Positions 42,498-52,373 of a stretch of 64,000 nucleotides of DNA are shown piece after piece. Position 1 is the stretch's first letter; every line of letters starts with the position of its first letter. The translations under genes and the position numbers were made by a program. The notes below the pieces were generated by a model, which was not told where the DNA came from, searched no databases, and saw only the letters and a list, made by a program, of their open reading frames with translations. Source of the DNA: Gammaproteobacteria bacterium (GTDB lineage: Bacteria > Pseudomonadota > Gammaproteobacteria > Enterobacterales > Psychrobiaceae). The stretch lies in the NCBI GenBank assembly GCA_013214945.1, contig JABSRT010000014.1, forward strand, positions 1-64,000. Direction: 5' to 3'.

Positions 42498-42596
42498 TTT
42501 ACTTCGTTTCGTTATATTCATTGGCTACCTCATTATCAGCGTGAGCAAGATAGCCAATTCGATTTACTTGAGCAATTAGGCCACGGTGATGAGTAG
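42498..42596 (+). pseudogene. Tail of a gene overlapping the IS91 transposase, possibly its tyrosine recombinase partner
   Basis: About 30 codons (FRYIHWLPHYQREQDSQFDL and a short rest) run into a TAG that overlaps the transposase start as ATGAGTAG. Many IS91-type elements carry a tyrosine recombinase-like gene coupled in this way, and this piece looks like its C-terminus. The frame is closed upstream by a TAG at 42471, so the rest is missing. That it is the recombinase is inference. Confidence 0.5.
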
Positions 42597-43713
42597 CGGT
42601 GCCTTTAAACACATTATCGAGGATGGGCTGATTAATTTAGATTCGTCGTCAGTATCACCGCGTCAATGGCAGGTCTTGCACCATCTGAAAGCTTGCCGTA
42701 CCAGTGCATTGGGCACTTATCAATGGCACAGCGACCACTGCGAGAAAGATACACAATGGTACTGCTCTTGCCGTGACAGACATTGTCCTGTCTGCCAAGG
42801 GCAAGCGCGGGAGCAATGGGTTAATGCGCGAGAAAAGGACATGTTGCCATTAACCTATCATCACTTGGTATTTACCTTACCGCATCAATTTAATGGCTGG
42901 GCAACGATGCACCCTAAGGTGATTTATGATGGGTTGTTTAAGGCTGTTTGGGCAACCTTAAGCGCCTTTGCTAATCCCCGGCACCACCTTGATGGCAAGC
43001 TGGGTATGATGTGCGTTTTACACACTTGGGGCCAGCAGCTCAATCGGCATATTCATTTACACTGTTTGATCCCTGGTGGGGTGCTCACATCAAATCAACG
43101 CTGGTGCAATGCACGGAAAGAAGGATACTTATTCCCAGTTAAAGCGTTGTCAGTTAAATATCGGGGCAAGATGCTGGCTTATTTATCTGAAATGAGTAAA
43201 GAGGGAGAATTGTTTCGTTTAACACCTGATGATGTCGTTCAAACATTGCATGCAGCTACGAAAAAACCGTGGGTTGTTTATAGTAAACCAGCCTTACAAC
43301 ATGCGAATACGGTGGTGAAATATTTAGCTCGTTATTGCAATCGTGTTGGTATTAGTGAAAGCCGATTGGCGTTAAACGATCAAGGGCAAGTTGCGCTAAA
43401 TTATTTGGATTATCGTTCCCGAGACCGCAAAACCATGCATTGTTCGACCAGTGAATTGTTACGACGCTTCTTGCTGCATGTGTTACCTAAAGGGTTTATG
43501 AGGCTGCGTTATTACGGTTTTTTGGCTAATTCAGTGAGGCGAAAATCATTAGTGGTTATACGCGATAGTTTAGCTCTACCAGCTGTGATAGATAAAAATG
43601 AGGTGACCAGCGATGAAATTGGTCCTGTTTGCCCGCATTGCCATCACTCAGGCATGAAGTTAATTAATCTAGTATTGCCAGCTCGCTTGGGGAGGGTGAA
43701 ACGAACGAGATAG
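42589..43713 (+). CDS. IS91 family transposase (HUH/Y type)
   Basis: This 374-residue rolling-circle transposase has an N-terminal zinc-binding region (CEKDTQWYCSCRDRHCPVCQ), the HUH motif in NRHIHLHCLIPGG near residue 155, the Tyr region VVKYLARYCNRVGIS near residue 245, the LRYYGFLANS block, and a C-terminal CPHCHHSGM zinc ribbon. It nicks one strand of DNA and replicates out through the neighbouring sequence, so such elements can carry adjacent genes with them. ATG at 42589 is chosen; a GTG precedes it. The element's terminal sequences were not identified. Confidence 0.9.
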   Translation: MSSGAFKHIIEDGLINLDSSSVSPRQWQVLHHLKACRTSALGTYQWHSDHCEKDTQWYCSCRDRHCPVCQGQAREQWVNAREKDMLPLTYHHLVFTLPHQFNGWATMHPKVIYDGLFKAVWATLSAFANPRHHLDGKLGMMCVLHTWGQQLNRHIHLHCLIPGGVLTSNQRWCNARKEGYLFPVKALSVKYRGKMLAYLSEMSKEGELFRLTPDDVVQTLHAATKKPWVVYSKPALQHANTVVKYLARYCNRVGISESRLALNDQGQVALNYLDYRSRDRKTMHCSTSELLRRFLLHVLPKGFMRLRYYGFLANSVRRKSLVVIRDSLALPAVIDKNEVTSDEIGPVCPHCHHSGMKLINLVLPARLGRVKRTR

Positions 43714-44015: not shown

Positions 44016-44624
44016 TTGGAAGAGTTCAATACAGGAAAAAGGGTCGCTTTCGATGAGTTCAAATTGTTCTATGAATCAGCAGAAAAAGTAACCGATAGAC
44101 GCCATTCAGCTAACAGATGGAATTATTCAATTTGCATAGCAATTTTAGGCGCCATTGCCGCAATAATAAGCTGGAGTCTGGGCAAGCCTGCCTTTCTAAT
44201 AACTGGCATCGTTAGTGTCGTATTACTGGCGGGAATGGCTGCTCTATACTGTACGCTTTGGATTGGTCAAATCAGGGATTTTAAAGAGCTCAATAATGCC
44301 AAATTCGCTGTAATCAATGAGATGGCAAGATTCGTATCGTTTGGTGATGGGAATAATGAAAATTTGATTTCCTATAAGCCATTTGAAAAAGAATGGGATG
44401 CTCTGACTAAAGCTAAAATTGCGGAAGAAGTTAAAAGTATAAACATCGTTGCACTGAAATCCTCACACATTGAATATTTAATCCCTAAAGCATTTCGAGC
44501 TTTATTCGTCCTAATTGTATTGGCTGTTCCATTGGAAGGGTGGCGAAACTACGAATCAATATCGAAAATACAGTCTACGCCATCGCCAATTGTTAAAGCT
44601 GAAATCCAGGAGGCTAAAAAATAG
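44016..44624 (+). CDS. RipA-like multi-pass membrane protein
   Basis: This 202-residue protein starts at TTG with GGAG about 10 bases upstream. It has two close membrane helices (about residues 45-64 and 68-90) and a third near 164-182, with a conserved cytosolic core (FKELNNAKFAVINEMA and PFEKEWDAL). That core matches the RipA family of octameric inner-membrane proteins as I remember it. It overlaps the next gene by one base (TAGTG) and shares a cassette with it. A membrane protein paired with a TIR-like enzyme fits an effector/sensor pair of a defence system, but this is inference. Confidence 0.7.
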   Translation: MEEFNTGKRVAFDEFKLFYESAEKVTDRRHSANRWNYSICIAILGAIAAIISWSLGKPAFLITGIVSVVLLAGMAALYCTLWIGQIRDFKELNNAKFAVINEMARFVSFGDGNNENLISYKPFEKEWDALTKAKIAEEVKSINIVALKSSHIEYLIPKAFRALFVLIVLAVPLEGWRNYESISKIQSTPSPIVKAEIQEAKK

Positions 44625-45013
44625 TGTTTTTCCATGTTGTTATGCCTATAGGCCCAAACCCGAATAAAGATAAGTGTCAAAAATTGATATCTGATGTTGC
44701 ACATGATCACGGGTTGCGCCCTCATTTTCCACGTTATGCAACAGAAGATCCGGTTTTTAATCTTCAGTCAACGTTACAAGATCTGAGTAAATCTGAGTTT
44801 GTTCTTGTTGACTTGTCCCTTGAAAGACCTAGCTGTTACTACGAACTCGGGCTTGCGGAAGCACTTGGGAAGCCGGTGTATTTGATAGCAATTGAAGGTA
44901 CAGATATACACCAAACAGCATCTAGAAAATTGGTTAGGTTTTATAAAAACAACGATGATCTTGTTGATTTAGTTCGTGATATTTTATCTGGAGCGGTGGG
45001 TGAAAATGGCTAA
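44624..45013 (+). CDS. Nucleoside 2-deoxyribosyltransferase/TIR-like enzyme
   Basis: This 129-residue protein begins at GTG with a strong AGGAGG site 11 bases before it. It has a Rossmann-like fold with VLVDLSLERPSCYYELGLAE near residue 70, where the Glu of YELG matches the catalytic Glu of NDT and TIR NAD-cleaving enzymes, then GKPVYLIAIEG. I expect cleavage of a nucleoside or NAD-type N-glycosidic bond. Its TAA stop lies within the left core of the following attC site, as in true integron cassettes. It is coupled to the RipA-like membrane protein. Confidence 0.75.
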   Translation: MFFHVVMPIGPNPNKDKCQKLISDVAHDHGLRPHFPRYATEDPVFNLQSTLQDLSKSEFVLVDLSLERPSCYYELGLAEALGKPVYLIAIEGTDIHQTASRKLVRFYKNNDDLVDLVRDILSGAVGENG

Positions 45014-45097
45014 CAAGGCAATGAAATTGACGCGCCTAAGCGTGTCTCTCACTTCGTTCGTTTACACTAATGCACGCAATTTATTGCAGCGTTATGT
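45008..45097 (+). other. Integron attC-like recombination site 2
   Basis: The 90-base site runs from GGCTAAC to GTTATGT. Its arms (GGCAATGAAATTGACGCG on the left; GCACGCAATTTATTGCAGC on the right) pair with two unpaired bases (G and A) in the left arm only, the extrahelical bases that mark attC sites. A second inner pairing (GTGT/ACAC) lies in the loop. The left core GGCTAAC is the exact complement of GTTAGCC at the right end of site 1, as expected if 43982-45091 was once a free circular cassette. Confidence 0.82.
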
Positions 45098-45129
45098 GTT
45101 TACCAATTTCTCAACAAATGGAGTTTTAA

Positions 45130-45558
45130 ATGAGTACTAAACAAATTCACGTATTTATCAGTCATGCCTGGGCGCACTCAGATCACTACGATACACTATC
45201 AGATTGGATCTTCGAGCAATCTTGGAGCGCCGGCCAAGCTTCACTTAATTTTCACAATTACTCTGTTCCGAAAGATGACCCAATTCATGATGCCGATGAT
45301 GATAAACAATTGAAAGATGCTTTATATAATCAAATCTCAAGAAGCCATGTAATCGTAATACCAATGGGTATGTATGCGAACTATAGCAAGTGGATTCAAA
45401 AAGAGCTTGATGGGGCTGCTGAATACGAAAAACCAATTTTAGCTGTAAACCCTTGGGCTCAAAAGCGAAAATCTAGTGTTGTAGGTGATGCTTCAAATAA
45501 AAAAGTCGGCTGGAATAGTAAGTCCGTAGTTGGCGGTATTTGGGAATTATATAAGTAG
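45130..45558 (+). CDS. ThsB-like TIR-domain protein (DUF1863 type)
   Basis: This 142-residue protein is a single TIR-like domain of the MTH538/DUF1863 group, to which ThsB of Thoeris belongs. It opens with HVFISHAWAHSD, carries FHNYSVPKDDP (the conserved NYS/DYS stretch), and SKWIQKELDGA with the putative catalytic Glu near residue 91, then KPILAVNPWAQ. ThsB proteins make a NAD-derived signal on phage infection. No ThsA (SIR2/SLOG) partner is in the window. It begins 33 bases after attC site 2 and may be a second cassette that has lost its own attC. Confidence 0.85.
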   Translation: MSTKQIHVFISHAWAHSDHYDTLSDWIFEQSWSAGQASLNFHNYSVPKDDPIHDADDDKQLKDALYNQISRSHVIVIPMGMYANYSKWIQKELDGAAEYEKPILAVNPWAQKRKSSVVGDASNKKVGWNSKSVVGGIWELYK

Positions 45559-45760: not shown

Positions 45761-47074
45761 TCATAATTTAAGATTAAATTCAACAACCAGTTTATGTGTT
45801 ATATCTGATGGAACACTAAGAACTCCAAGTAACCGTTCTAGCTGAGTTGCAGTAGACTGAATACTTCCTGTTTCATGCTGATGAGCAACACGCGCAGCAT
45901 GATATAAATTCACAGATTGTTCCCAGTCACCTTTAATTAAAAGAGCTTCTGGTTCAGTAACACGCTCCCAATAATCATGAGATGGTCTTCCATCACGTTC
46001 ACTATCCATTTCTTTCAGTTGTTCTAGCACCTTATCGGCTAAGGCTATTGCCTCATCCATTTCACCTAACAGGACTGATTTAGAGGCTGCGTTTATCCCT
46101 GTGTATGTATCAGAGGGGACTTTGCTAAAGCCCTCTTTGTAAAGATTTCGTGAATGTTCCAATGCATCGCGCGCGCCTGATATATTATTAATTTTTTTCC
46201 GATGCTCCCATAAATCTGCCCATACTGCTGCAAGAATCCCTAATGTTTCGGTATCACGATGACCTTTTTCGAGCAACAGATTTAACTCATAAGCAGCGTT
46301 ATCGAGCTTACCTGCTCGTCGTAGTGCAAGCCCATATAATTGTTGAAGTCGAACCGAATTTGGAAATGTCTTTAAAGCGAACTCTGCCATCTGGATTGAC
46401 TCTTGATACTGTTTGCCACGAATAAGTAGATCAATTGCAACACCTGATAATGTTGCTGAGGAAGTATATGCAGGTTCGTTACTTACAATGCGTTCCTTAA
46501 TTTTGTCAAATAGCTGAGCTTTTGCCATTGCTCGAAGTTTTATTGGCTCTTCAGTCATAGATTTTTCGAATTCCATGACATGTCTGACAGCCGTAGTACT
46601 AAGTGCTTTTCCTGCCAACCCGCAAGTTAACCTGACAAGGTCTGCGCCCATGGGACCATCAACGTATTCAGAGAAATCAAGATAGAGTTGCCCACCCTGA
46701 AGCCCTGGGGGTTTTTGCCCATCTAATGATGCAACAACAAAGAAAAACGGAGAATCAGTACCTATAGTTTCATTCTTTTTGTGCATCATGGAATCTAGCT
46801 CGGCCTCTACCCATTGGGAATCAGCAGTATTTTGAGACCAGATCAAGACCCCACTAGCACTACTATCAAGATTTTTACCAAGTTGTGAGGCTAACCCCTT
46901 TCCTGGTACAAGAACAAATTGGTCAAGAAATACAGTATAACCACACTGTGTTAACATGTCGTACAATGAAATAGCCCAAATCCGATCTAAAGAACGATAG
47001 GAAATAAAAACATCCCACTTAAAGTTTTCCGGCCGTGGTCGAGGTAATTCGCAGTGCTCAATCCAGTAATTCAT
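45761..47074 (-). CDS. TIR domain protein with TPR / TRAFs-binding-like C-terminus
   Basis: This 437-residue protein has an N-terminal TIR domain (about residues 15-165): WDVFISYRSLDRIWA, LDQFVLVPGKG, and QWVEAELDSMM with the putative catalytic Glu near residue 90. The rest (about 180-437) is alpha-helical with TPR-like units and the stretch SDTYTGINAASKSVLLGE, resembling the MAP3K TRAFs-binding (DUF4071) region often joined to bacterial TIRs. It is the last gene of the operon, 11 bases after the SLATT gene. It could be an NAD-degrading effector or a scaffold; this is inferred from the domain makeup. Confidence 0.85.
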   Translation of the reverse strand: MNYWIEHCELPRPRPENFKWDVFISYRSLDRIWAISLYDMLTQCGYTVFLDQFVLVPGKGLASQLGKNLDSSASGVLIWSQNTADSQWVEAELDSMMHKKNETIGTDSPFFFVVASLDGQKPPGLQGGQLYLDFSEYVDGPMGADLVRLTCGLAGKALSTTAVRHVMEFEKSMTEEPIKLRAMAKAQLFDKIKERIVSNEPAYTSSATLSGVAIDLLIRGKQYQESIQMAEFALKTFPNSVRLQQLYGLALRRAGKLDNAAYELNLLLEKGHRDTETLGILAAVWADLWEHRKKINNISGARDALEHSRNLYKEGFSKVPSDTYTGINAASKSVLLGEMDEAIALADKVLEQLKEMDSERDGRPSHDYWERVTEPEALLIKGDWEQSVNLYHAARVAHQHETGSIQSTATQLERLLGVLSVPSDITHKLVVEFNLKL

Positions 47075-47085
47075 GCAATATCTCT

Positions 47086-47523
47086 CTATCGTTTGTTCTG
47101 GTCATCAGGGGTTTTAGCTATATATTTTCCCCAATCGGAGTTTTCTTTAGATATTATTGACTCAATATCATTTACAAATATATCAAATGAATCATCGTCC
47201 TTGTAAGGAGTAGAACTCGTCAAGAAAAGGTGTTTTAAATGTTTTAACGTTTCACAAGTTGTACGATAATTAATCCAACGCTCTTGATATTTACATAAAG
47301 ATAATAAAGCTGTTGCACATGTAACTGCCACACCCAATAACGCGGTAATCCATTCGGAATAATTTATATCATCAGAAAAACCTGAAACCAGAGGGATTAT
47401 AGCCCCGGAAATAATTTGAATGACAGATAAGCCCTTATACATACTTTGACTAGATTTGCTTTTAGTGTCATAGAATGCAATTTGATCATCTACTCTTTTG
47501 TTAGTGTACTGCTCAGGATTCAT
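47086..47523 (-). CDS. SLATT domain (DUF4231) membrane protein
   Basis: This 145-residue protein has two membrane helices (about residues 33-48 and 60-78) between helical ends. The opening YTNKRVDDQIAFYDTKSKSSQ and the segment KYQERWINYRTTCETLKHLK after the second helix match DUF4231, a branch of the SLATT domains. SLATT proteins are predicted pore-forming effectors in nucleotide-signal-dependent immunity. The start directly follows the stop of the TIR gene with no gap, so the two are translationally coupled. Confidence 0.85.
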   Translation of the reverse strand: MNPEQYTNKRVDDQIAFYDTKSKSSQSMYKGLSVIQIISGAIIPLVSGFSDDINYSEWITALLGVAVTCATALLSLCKYQERWINYRTTCETLKHLKHLFLTSSTPYKDDDSFDIFVNDIESIISKENSDWGKYIAKTPDDQNKR

Positions 47524-48024
47524 CTATCTCACCATTGATGCTTTGTTCACAGCAGCCATTATTGCATCATGATTCCATTGAACTGTTGAGCTAACATTAT
47601 CGCTAATATAGGAAGGTGTATTAGCGGGAGGAGTATTGCCTTTATGCACTGCGATAACTCCCTTTCCCATTTTTATACTTTGCTCAACTTCCCATTTAAC
47701 CCATTTACTCTTAATACTTTTATCAGATAAATAAACCATAGTGACCGATGTGTTTTTTATTTTTTCGCGAATTTTTCGTTTAATATAATCAGAATCTTCA
47801 CTATCAAAAGCCTTTTTTACTGAGTAATCAGAAAATTCTAAATCACTATTGTCGTTTTTTGACTGACCACGTAATAAATTTACTTCATTCATATCTTCAT
47901 GTGAAAAACTTATAAAGACATTTCGGGTTTTCATATTTCCCGCCTGTTCAATTTTTTCTTTCGCCTTTTGCTCCAACTGACTCTTATCAGTAGGAGAAAA
48001 ACCGAAGCCACCACCACCGCCCAT
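47524..48024 (-). CDS. TIR-like (DUF1863) protein with N-terminal polyglycine (M-G-G-G-G-G)
   Basis: The true start is the ATG at 48024, giving 166 residues: TAAGGAG overlaps the upstream stop and ends 6 bases before it. A longer in-frame form from 48087 would read through the end of the QueC-like gene and is rejected. The protein opens MGGGGGFGFSPTDKSQ, then a short helix, then a ThsB-like TIR fold: NVFISFSHEDMNE, LEFSDYSVKKAF and SKWVKWEVEQ with the putative catalytic Glu near residue 111. The bare glycine N-terminus next to a QueC-like enzyme suggests N-terminal conjugation of a deazaguanine. It takes the position a CD-NTase would hold in type IV CBASS. Confidence 0.88.
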   Translation of the reverse strand: MGGGGGFGFSPTDKSQLEQKAKEKIEQAGNMKTRNVFISFSHEDMNEVNLLRGQSKNDNSDLEFSDYSVKKAFDSEDSDYIKRKIREKIKNTSVTMVYLSDKSIKSKWVKWEVEQSIKMGKGVIAVHKGNTPPANTPSYISDNVSSTVQWNHDAIMAAVNKASMVR

Positions 48025-48034
48025 ATCAAGCTCC

Positions 48035-48616
48035 TTAATTGTTAAATTCCATACAAGAAATACAAGTGCCACAAGGTGTTTCGCCACCTACATGGCACGA
48101 ATATGACGATATAATCCCTCTTTCCTTAGCAAGTTGGATGACATCTTTTTTATAAAAGTCCCGTAAAGGCGTAATTATCTCTATTTTTCTTCCAAGTGAT
48201 TTTGATATTGCATATTCCGCAGAAAAAAGAAAATCATCTGTTTGGTCAGGAAAAATTGCTGTTTCTTCTCTAAGGAGCCCTATTGAAACAGAAGAGCACT
48301 CATTTTGAACAGCGAAAGAGCTTGCCATTAGCAACAGCATCATATTTCGGCCAGGTAAAAATGCCTCATCAACCACATTTTTAGTTGGGTCTGTCAGACC
48401 TGAAGATATAACCTTACCAAAGCCGCTTATATCCATAATTTGGGGCTGTCTCAGCCCAAATTGTTTAGTATGTTTTATTGCTCCTTGTAACTCACGCTCC
48501 AAATTAATTTGTCCGTAATTAATGAACAATGGCAATTGATTCTGGCCAACTTCTTGAGCTAAAACAGTCATCAGACAAGAATCTAATCCACCGGATAGTA
48601 ATGTTACTATGCTCAT
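48035..48616 (-). CDS. QueC-like PP-loop enzyme (Cap9-like, type IV CBASS)
   Basis: QueC makes 7-cyano-7-deazaguanine from the carboxy form using ATP. This 193-residue relative keeps the PP-loop LLSGGLDS at residues 6-13, FLPGRNMMLLLMA near residue 95, and the C-terminal zinc site C..GGETPCGTCISC. It is shorter than E. coli QueC (231). The start at 48616 forms an ATGA overlap with the glycosylase gene, with GAAGG upstream; 13 residues of the longer frame are dropped. Context (TGT-like, OGG-like) makes it the Cap9-type defence paralogue rather than the queuosine enzyme. Confidence 0.9.
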   Translation of the reverse strand: MSIVTLLSGGLDSCLMTVLAQEVGQNQLPLFINYGQINLERELQGAIKHTKQFGLRQPQIMDISGFGKVISSGLTDPTKNVVDEAFLPGRNMMLLLMASSFAVQNECSSVSIGLLREETAIFPDQTDDFLFSAEYAISKSLGRKIEIITPLRDFYKKDVIQLAKERGIISSYSCHVGGETPCGTCISCMEFNN

Positions 48617-49314
48617 GTCACAACCTTCATATTTAACGCCCTCATTACGAACCACATTGCCTGATCGACAACAGAAACTGAATACTTAAATTTACGTACT
48701 ATTGATATAAAACGAATTTCCACTTCTTCATATTTATCGATACGAGCAAGCTTGGATATATTTAAATGTTTATCGCCAGCAATCTCCATATAACGAATTA
48801 TATGCCTATCAATAATTGCCACTTCATCCGTATAGCCGATATTTTTAAGAAAATGACTTGCTTGCTTGGGGCCTATACCTGGACAAATACGAATCAACTC
48901 TCTCCTTAATGCAAAGGAACCTAGATCTAAACTAACTAATTTCTTTAAAGAGCCATAGTCGGAGTAAATGTTAAATAATGATTGTGATATGCAATTTGCA
49001 CCACGTGCAGGATACCTATATCGCTTATACATTTTATCAGTTGTTTTTGCGTGTACAGGCATAGTTAAAAATTGTTGTATGGCAGAACTAGATTCATTTT
49101 TTAATACCATTTTTTTAGATACCAATCTAGAACGCCTAATACCTGCGGCATAAGCAACAGCAATTTCATATCTAACTCCGCTTCCTAGTATGCAAATTAA
49201 TAACTCATAAACAAGTTGTGTCTCTGTCATCTCAGCAACACTAATACGTTTGACGAGTTGATTTACATCACTGCATAAATTATTGACTGCATGATCAATT
49301 TGCCATAATTTCAT
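48613..49314 (-). CDS. OGG-like HhH-GPD DNA glycosylase family protein (Cap11-like)
   Basis: This 233-residue protein resembles the Ogg2/AGOG branch of helix-hairpin-helix glycosylases. The hairpin ICPGIGPKQASHFLKNIGY has the catalytic Lys near residue 150, and the Asp lies in VAIIDRHIIRYM about 18 residues later, so both active-site residues are kept. The family removes damaged bases such as 8-oxoguanine from DNA; here the target may be a deazaguanine-linked or modified substrate (inference). The start at 49314 overlaps the end of the TGT-like gene by 20 bases and has GAGG upstream. Confidence 0.85.
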   Translation of the reverse strand: MKLWQIDHAVNNLCSDVNQLVKRISVAEMTETQLVYELLICILGSGVRYEIAVAYAAGIRRSRLVSKKMVLKNESSSAIQQFLTMPVHAKTTDKMYKRYRYPARGANCISQSLFNIYSDYGSLKKLVSLDLGSFALRRELIRICPGIGPKQASHFLKNIGYTDEVAIIDRHIIRYMEIAGDKHLNISKLARIDKYEEVEIRFISIVRKFKYSVSVVDQAMWFVMRALNMKVVT

Positions 49315-50290
49315 ATAAAGCCTCGTCGATTTTTATATCACTTGTTAATGCTGATGCAACAGTATCGAAAAATTGAGGGGGAAGGTAGTGTTGCAACATA
49401 ACTTCTATTTGATCCGTTTCTATAGTTTGTTGTAGATAGGGCATCCAATTTTTGTAAAATTCAAGGTTATGCATATAACAACTTGTGAAAAAATTTATAT
49501 CGGTGTTTTGCCCCCACTTACTTTGATGCTTATATAAATCCAATTGAAGCGGATGGTGAAGTGTTCCTTTTTCAAAATCAACGACTGTTTGACACCAATC
49601 AAGTCCATCAAACGAATCAGCTCCTGCAAAAGCATATAGCATCATAGATATAGGGTTACCAGTGCCAAGTATGTGTAATGTTTGATATTTGTCTAATGTA
49701 TTTAAAGAAGTTCGGATTTTTTTGATATTGAGAAGGATTTCTAAAACCCCTCTGCCTAGCTCTCTTTCCGGTATAGCGATTAATTTAGGCTTACAACTCT
49801 GACTAACCGCCATGCAGAGTGCTGGGTATTCAAGTGGATTTTTACAATGGATAATTGGCGATATATCTGATGTGCTAGCTTGTTTTATAGTTTTTTGGAT
49901 AGATGAAGTAATAATTGAAGAATTTTGTGTTTTTTGATTTAAGCAAAAATCATCAAAGCTAAATGCATATGAAACGTCATTTCTTTTTAACGTCTTTATA
50001 TAACGTTTTTTACACCACCGCTTTGAACGAGACCAAACCATTTCATAAAGGCCAGAGTCCCATAAAACTACCTGGCTCTGCTCTTTAGCTTTTTCTAAGG
50101 CCAACTGAAGCCGGCTATTATTCTGATTCTTATAAACATCAAAACAAGAAACCAAAAACTGAGGATAGTCACAAGCGACTAATAATTCAACATGATCAAT
50201 TACAGACCAATTGTTTTTTGAAACACCTGAAACCGAGGGGTAGAATATTGGGGTTGGTAACCCGCCAATTGTATTTTTTACTTTAACCAT
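49295..50290 (-). CDS. tRNA-guanine transglycosylase-like protein (Cap10-like)
   Basis: This 331-residue protein is a diverged TGT barrel. Recognisable pieces are VVLWDSGLYEM (TGT DSGGFQ region), IAIPERELGRG, and HILGTGNPISMMLYAFAGADSFDGLDW, where the Asp of FDG corresponds to the TGT nucleophile. The usual C-x-C-x2-C zinc site of TGT is not evident. TGTs swap guanine for a deazaguanine in tRNA; the type IV CBASS version Cap10 is thought to act on or bind a protein partner. It is the first gene of the operon, with AAAGGA before the ATG. Confidence 0.82.
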   Translation of the reverse strand: MVKVKNTIGGLPTPIFYPSVSGVSKNNWSVIDHVELLVACDYPQFLVSCFDVYKNQNNSRLQLALEKAKEQSQVVLWDSGLYEMVWSRSKRWCKKRYIKTLKRNDVSYAFSFDDFCLNQKTQNSSIITSSIQKTIKQASTSDISPIIHCKNPLEYPALCMAVSQSCKPKLIAIPERELGRGVLEILLNIKKIRTSLNTLDKYQTLHILGTGNPISMMLYAFAGADSFDGLDWCQTVVDFEKGTLHHPLQLDLYKHQSKWGQNTDINFFTSCYMHNLEFYKNWMPYLQQTIETDQIEVMLQHYLPPQFFDTVASALTSDIKIDEALYEIMAN

Positions 50291-51584: not shown

Positions 51585-52373
51585 TTGTGTGAATTGCTTG
51601 GGATGAGCGCTAATGTGCCGACCGATATTGTTTTTAGTTTTACCGGCTTAGTTGAACGGGGTGGGGTAACAGGTCCACATTCCGATGGTTGGGGAATTAC
51701 CTTTTATGACGGCAAAGGCTGTCGTTCTTTTCGCGATCCGCTGCCAAGCTGTCAATCAGAAGTCGCTAAATTAGTTAAAAACTACCCAATTAAGAGCCAA
51801 GCGGTTATTAGTCATATTCGTCAGGCGAATCGTGGTGGGGTATCACTTGAAAATACTCATCCGTTTGGTCGTGAACTGTGGGGCAAGAATTGGACTTACG
51901 CTCACAATGGTCAGCTGAGCGATTATGAAGATAAAATTACTTCGGAGCGTTTTCTGCCGATTGGTCAAACAGACAGTGAGCTGGCTTTTTGTTGGCTGCT
52001 CGACCAAATGGCGAAACAATTTCCTAGCCAGCCTGAAGACTCTAAGCAGTTATTTGAATTTTTAAATCAGCAATGTGATTACTTGCGTAGTTTTGGTGTT
52101 TTCAACATGTTGTTGTCAGATGGCGAGTTTGTTTTTGCCTACTGCACCAATAATTTGTGTTGGATTACGCGCCGTGCGCCGTTTGGCAAGGCCAAGTTAA
52201 TTGATACCGATATGGTGATCGATTTTCAAAAAGAAACGACACCTTACGATGTCGTGACTGTTATTGCGACTAAACCGTTAACCAATGACGAAGCCTGGCA
52301 AAAAATGGGCTGTGGCGGCATGGTAATGTTTCGCCATGGCGAGCTCGACATGGCGTTTGAGCCTCAAGTATAA
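51585..52373 (+). CDS. yafJ: Class II glutamine amidotransferase (YafJ-like)
   Basis: This 262-residue protein starts with TTG followed by the catalytic Cys2 (MCELLGMS), which must be exposed after Met removal. Other Ntn-hydrolase features are SDGWGITFYD, SHIRQANRGGVSLENTHPF and TYAHNGQLSDY. It matches E. coli YafJ (255). The ammonia acceptor is not known. AAGGAT lies before the TTG. It marks the return to core genes right of the island. Confidence 0.9.
   Translation: MCELLGMSANVPTDIVFSFTGLVERGGVTGPHSDGWGITFYDGKGCRSFRDPLPSCQSEVAKLVKNYPIKSQAVISHIRQANRGGVSLENTHPFGRELWGKNWTYAHNGQLSDYEDKITSERFLPIGQTDSELAFCWLLDQMAKQFPSQPEDSKQLFEFLNQQCDYLRSFGVFNMLLSDGEFVFAYCTNNLCWITRRAPFGKAKLIDTDMVIDFQKETTPYDVVTVIATKPLTNDEAWQKMGCGGMVMFRHGELDMAFEPQV

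Follow-up and report, generated by a model that had tools for sequence, protein, structure and literature searches.

Can the modification that controls one kind of bacterial immune enzyme also be placed on another? In type IV cyclic-oligonucleotide-based anti-phage signaling systems (CBASS), the enzyme Cap9 attaches 7-carboxy-7-deazaguanine (CDG) to the CD-NTase at its N-terminal glycine, and the N-terminal motif of CdnD is MGGS (PMC11996544, PMC13279940). The question is raised by a 64,000-nucleotide stretch of contig JABSRT010000014.1 from a gammaproteobacterium (the window), in which the gene for a ThsB-type TIR protein of 166 amino acids (47524..48024, minus strand) lies directly downstream of a gene for a QueC-like enzyme (48035..48616, minus strand). 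The TIR protein opens with MGGGGGFGFSPTD. The original prediction, drawn from the nucleotide sequence, held that the QueC-like enzyme attaches a deazaguanine to the N terminus of this protein; the chemistry on which it drew for QueC-like enzymes of type IV CBASS agrees with the two papers cited above. We put the probability at roughly 70% that the locus encodes the TIR equivalent of type IV CBASS: the TIR protein, and not the cyclase, would be deazaguanylated, a TGT-like protein would bind the tail, and the TIR would act through effectors.

The glycine start of the TIR protein and its link to QueC

Six consecutive genes occupy the minus strand at this locus, in the order TGT-like, OGG-like, QueC-like, TIR, SLATT, and TIR_2/TPR-S, and we regard them as one operon because adjoining genes overlap or almost touch. 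The polyglycine start of the TIR protein proved to be real. Its ATG (48022-48024) is preceded, with a 6-base spacer, by an ideal TAAGGAG ribosome-binding site (48031..48037, minus strand), the TAA of which is the stop codon of the QueC-like gene itself, and the first codons are ATG GGC GGT GGT GGT GGC TTC GGT TTT. The start at 48024 is supported because an AAGGAG-like site and MGG are both kept in relatives. Longer GTG starts, including the GTG at 48087 called by the open reading frame (ORF) finder, which falls inside the QueC-like gene, were rejected: they have no such ribosome site and are not conserved. The N-terminal stretch reads MGGGGGFGFSPTDKSQLEQKAKEKIEQ, of which MGGGGGFGFSPTDKSQ (47977..48024, minus strand) is the proposed acceptor tail, with Gly2 as the proposed acceptor. 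In the AlphaFold model, residues 1-9 have a pLDDT below 50 and are predicted to form a disordered glycine tail; a helix spans residues 12-30, and the TIR domain begins at about residue 33 (PF08937, E = 1.1e-22; PADLOC ThsB, 6.4e-21). Fold matches in the PDB are 8fz9, ThsB (6lhy), and EcThsB (8wcf). The segment W108-V-K-W-E112 places a Glu where the catalytic residue of TIR domains usually lies, and E112 is kept at 19/19 loci.

Those 19 loci were assembled from several sources. Searching 85,000 genomes with the TGT-like protein as query yielded 6 loci, all with the arrangement TGT-OGG-QueC-TIR; rhizobial plasmids contributed 4 (additional near-copies being left out of the count), a viral contig 1, sampled Pseudomonadota genomes 4, and a second class sample 3 new ones, for a total of 19 with the window. 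The 18 additional operons thus come from Pseudomonadota, Campylobacterota, rhizobial plasmids, and one viral contig. In all 19, the TIR protein starts with MGG[G/S], followed by a tail of about 30 residues; orthologs lacking N-terminal glycines in the same operon type were sought, and none was found among the 18. Within the first 16 residues of the 19-row alignment, only M1, G2, G3, and D13 are invariant, and the spacer between them varies. The glycine run is longer by two residues in one protein (L010), and two loci (L015 and L053) have tandem ATGs that make an MMGG start possible. Most of the starts are preceded by Shine-Dalgarno-like sites. The glycine codons vary from locus to locus, so conservation acts at the protein level; the same variation rules out a DNA repeat artifact. 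Since the 19 TIR proteins belong to a single related group, with 47-74% identity to the TIR of the window, their phylogenetic independence is limited, and they do not represent 19 separate events. No match to the TGT-like protein was found in phage records, Cap10 and CdnD were not found in viral contigs, and no further operon appeared in 369 genomes of the window's class beyond its own or, apart from the one already known, in 249 genomes of the Sulfurimonas-side class.

Is the glycine start tied to this particular QueC? We drew two samples of PF08937 TIR proteins by family alone, regardless of QueC, and scored QueC within 1.5-kb flanks. An MGG start was present in 4/4 QueC-linked TIRs and in 1/41 others (Fisher P = 3.4e-5). 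The single exception (L082) is doubtful, as its candidate MGG lies at an alternative GTG start of an 807-residue frame. Across the same DNA, Gly-Gly follows about 1.3% of the Met codons near the starts of long frames, and the glycine start is above chance. Small TIRs without QueC mostly begin 3-9 residues ahead of the domain, and the QueC-linked ones carry about 30 more. At one locus (L030, G141:C45), a gene for a ThsB-type TIR stands immediately behind a canonical (PDC) QueC, yet its product starts with MTQRHK and has no glycines; therefore only the special QueC counts, and proximity to any QueC was discarded as a criterion. Aligning orthologs, as the original prediction had proposed, thus confined the MGG start to TIRs beside this QueC (19/19, compared with the one doubtful case among 41 elsewhere).

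Type IV CBASS offered a second comparison. Three of its CD-NTases start much like the TIR proteins (MGGSGGGFFSNSDI; GGSFGSGFDPRDI, from 9ntn; and MGGSGGGSYIPDRW), and the glycine start is absent from 4/4 CD-NTases that are not beside QueC. The presence of the same start on unrelated CD-NTases beside Cap9, and its absence from the four elsewhere, gives independent support for the link to QueC. The TIR and CdnD tails have in common MGG, further glycines, an aromatic residue in many cases, and an Asp ahead of a charged stretch. When pairwise alignments were compared with 2000 shuffles that kept MGGS, the similarity of the tails reached z values of 4.4-5.3, with 0-2 of the 2000 shuffles scoring as well.

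The QueC-like, TGT-like, and OGG-like proteins

The QueC-like enzyme (193 amino acids from its ATG, with a possible extension to a GTG at 48655) belongs to PF06508 (E = 2.7e-35). It retains the SGGLDS ATP loop (SGG.DS), YGQ..E, GRN, F122-P-D124-Q, and four zinc cysteines. Cap9 recognizes deazaguanine through Y115 and D117, and QatC has Thr/Thr at the base-recognition positions (PMC13279940). In our alignment and the rows of the tree, the equivalents of Y115 and D117 are F122 and D124, the Asp being invariant and the aromatic character kept; the corresponding substitution in Escherichia coli QueC, Y131F, leaves partial activity (PMC13329287). PDB matches include QueC (2pg3 and 3bl5) and Cap9 (9nto), yet the tree sets the protein in a clade of its own: the TIR-linked group had support of 98/97, Cap9, represented by two rows only, 95/94, and canonical QueC 97/95. 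The order among these groups is unsure because the branches are long. Elsewhere, the host genome carries a canonical QueC gene with an adjacent QueE-like gene, a source of CDG.

The gene for the TGT-like protein (331 amino acids; 49295..50290, minus strand) matches the PADLOC model for the TGT of type IV CBASS (8.6e-25). Its sole PDB sequence match is Cap10 (9ntn, 6.7e-9), and the AlphaFold model (pLDDT, 89.8) has as its top Foldseek match the same entry, Cap10 with NDG-tailed CdnD (E = 1.9e-12), ahead of the tRNA-TGTs. The aspartates of DSGxYE and FDGL are kept, and D78-S-G, D113, and F-D228-G-L are invariant. We take D78, D113, and D228 to line up with the TGT pocket aspartates. The zinc cysteines and zinc site of tRNA-TGT are absent. 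In alphaproteobacterial-type operons (L009-L012, L015, L050-L053, L061, and L062), the protein is about 460-490 residues long, and its extra N-terminal part is a TIR domain wherever this is annotated or readable. The TGT-like protein had been expected to bind or remove the mark. The Cap10 precedent favors binding; nothing speaks for removal.

Between the TGT-like and QueC-like genes lies one for an OGG-like helix-hairpin-helix glycosylase (233 amino acids; 48613..49314, minus strand; PF22175, E = 2.4e-20). Its PDB match, 3fhf (6.3e-22), is an N-glycosylase/DNA lyase. The K150 and D169 positions of archaeal-type Ogg are kept, and the likely catalytic Lys and Asp are present in 7/7 aligned rows. 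Sensing or processing of modified phage DNA is a possible function of this glycosylase.

Proposed mechanism and alternatives

The conserved MGG[G/S] start, the retained Cap9 contact residues (with Tyr replaced by Phe), and the match to Cap10 support the TIR protein as the substrate of the QueC-like enzyme, and from them we infer the modification itself. The QueC-like enzyme would use ATP to activate CDG made by the host QueE, and, once Met is removed, would form an amide bond between the CDG carboxyl group and the glycine then exposed at the TIR N terminus. The Cap10-like TGT protein would then bind the modified tail and hold or position the TIR. Upon infection, the TIR would act on NAD+, either making a signal or consuming the NAD+, and the SLATT membrane protein, the TPR-S protein, or both would execute the response. 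TPR-S may sense a TIR-made signal.

Several observations weigh against this proposal. When the shuffles also kept the first ten residues, the similarity of the TIR and CdnD tails fell to z values of only 1.8-2.9, with 19-107 of the 2000 shuffles as good; because similarity is weak past residue 10, what the tails share is mainly their glycine-rich start, and descent of the entire tail from a common ancestor is not established. Every TIR operon has the OGG-like gene, but the type IV CBASS locus that we compared (L064) lacks it, and the proposed mechanism gives the gene no role. The TIR-linked QueC clade is separate from the two Cap9 sequences. Finally, a Gln replaces the Cys of the PDC motif of Cap9 and canonical QueC, so the product could differ.

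This last substitution bears on the alternative that the QueC-like enzyme modifies the TIR N terminus with another carboxylate, or with a deazapurine other than CDG. PDQ replaces PDC in 16/16 TIR-linked QueCs and in 0/10 Cap9 or canonical rows, and QatC, in which recognition residues are also altered, is thought to yield a distinct product (PMC13279940). The enzyme described here nevertheless keeps the aromatic and Asp contacts of Cap9 for deazaguanine, unlike QatC, and its TGT-like partner retains the aspartates of a deazaguanine-type pocket. We consider a different product unlikely.

Still less likely, in our view, is that QueC, TGT, and OGG constitute a module for small molecules or nucleic acids, which would make a preQ0-like base and put it into or take it from DNA or RNA, with the TIR tail serving as a docking peptide or linker. 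Canonical QueC and TGT do work on a small molecule and on tRNA, the OGG-like gene retains its glycosylase residues, and DNA deazaguanine systems exist. Against such a module stand a TGT-like protein that lacks the zinc and RNA-binding part and matches Cap10 best, the invariance of the exposed Gly2 itself together with the absence of the tail from TIRs without QueC, and the canonical QueC that the host already possesses. Inheritance of the glycine start within one TIR lineage, unrelated to QueC, would fit the relatedness of the 19 TIRs but is highly improbable, given that identity falls to 47% with so few of the first 16 residues invariant and that unrelated CD-NTases beside QueC bear the same start.

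Relation to known systems and neighboring genes

As in type IV CBASS, QueC-like and Cap10-like genes here adjoin a signaling enzyme whose MGG[S/G] start is disordered, and the PADLOC models for the QueC, OGG, and TGT of type IV CBASS match the window genes; a Cap10-type TGT-like gene is present by both sequence and fold matches. Unlike type IV CBASS, the signaling enzyme is a ThsB-type TIR and not a CD-NTase, the QueC belongs to the separate PDQ clade, and in Alphaproteobacteria the TGT often carries a second TIR as a fusion. The locus resembles qatABCD, in which a QueC-family enzyme is paired with a partner, QatB, whose N terminus (MGTS) lies on a disordered tail essential for defense (PMC13279940), whereas QatC has large extensions in addition to Thr/Thr and the window QueC is minimal and keeps the aromatic/Asp pair. 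With Thoeris it shares the ThsB-family TIR, as judged from the Pfam, PADLOC, and PDB matches; it differs in the N-terminal glycine tail, the QueC, TGT, and OGG genes, and the SLATT and TPR-S candidate effectors. Searches of the six operon genes against Pfam, PADLOC, and NCBIfam returned no match to a CD-NTase, to the QatA ATPase, QatB, or the QatD TatD nuclease, or to ThsA or another described Thoeris effector. Assignment to type IV CBASS, Thoeris, or qat was ruled out, as the defining genes are missing.

Protein deazaguanylation was reportedly described in 2025 for one type of substrate, the CD-NTase of type IV CBASS, and it is suspected for QatB. A literature search for QueC with TIR, CBASS and TGT, SLATT, or Thoeris, with a 2025 Science paper outside its reach, found no description of the present arrangement, and TIR is not mentioned in PMC13279940 or PMC13329287. 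The comparison of these sequences suggests that a guanine-like tag on the first glycine is used in a second, TIR-based type of anti-phage defense. We think it probable that N-terminal deazaguanylation is a portable regulatory module, comprising a QueC-like ligase, a Cap10-like reader, and a glycine tail on unrelated immune enzymes (cyclases, TIRs, QatB, and perhaps more), and that the TIR system is a distinct, undescribed type of defense spread across several bacterial classes. If the TIR protein is indeed a substrate, the tag would be a general means of controlling immune signaling enzymes, one modification would link cyclic nucleotides and TIR signals, two main second-messenger defenses of bacteria, and the small TIR would offer a tractable new case for asking what the tag does. 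In samples of Pseudomonadota, operons of the TIR type seemed to outnumber type IV CBASS (5 versus 0 in 398 genomes and 4 versus 1 in 385).

SLATT genes, with one or two SLATT domains, or TPR-S proteins are found beside 19/19 loci, as determined by a scan and, for some loci, by annotation or evident similarity. The window has both. Directly after the TIR gene is one for a putative two-transmembrane SLATT effector (145 amino acids; 47086..47523, minus strand; DUF4231, 1.2e-26; SLATT_1, 2.1e-15), and the last operon gene encodes a TIR_2 and TPR-S protein (437 amino acids; 45761..47074, minus strand; PF13676, 7.7e-18; PF20308 TPR-S, 6.3e-17) that is a putative signal receptor or effector. This variety resembles the exchangeable effectors of CBASS, in which SLATT-type effectors also occur.

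The DNA upstream of a conserved gene at 51585 varies among relatives of the genus, which fits the expectation for a variable defense region. A separate set of three genes adjoins the operon on the plus strand (44016-45558). Its products are an 8xMP membrane protein, a protein resembling nucleoside deoxyribosyltransferases, and another ThsB-type TIR (MSTKQIHVFISHAW); at a different locus (L008), a TIR like this last one is located upstream of the TGT gene. Near these defense genes, a plus-strand ORF (42586-43713) resembles, by eye only, an IS91-type transposase. In the alphaproteobacterial-type operons, a PfkB-like kinase gene lies immediately upstream of the TIR-TGT gene (L009:1067-2200 and L010-L012; similarly in L015, L053, L061, and L062), and the GSGGRA region of this kinase resembles the PfkB of another QueC-linked operon, on a Moraxella osloensis plasmid (NZ_CP024445.1, L101:2400-6059). 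That operon encodes a 120-amino-acid protein with the N terminus MSGSGGGINTYNDYS, together with a PfkB/deoxyribosyltransferase-like protein, a divergent QueC that lacks the PDC motif, and a protein that carries the annotation anti-phage dGTPase. It looks like the PfkB-linked QueC "Cluster 4," which has been read as purine salvage (PMC13329287), and it may represent a further type of defense with a glycine-rich acceptor.
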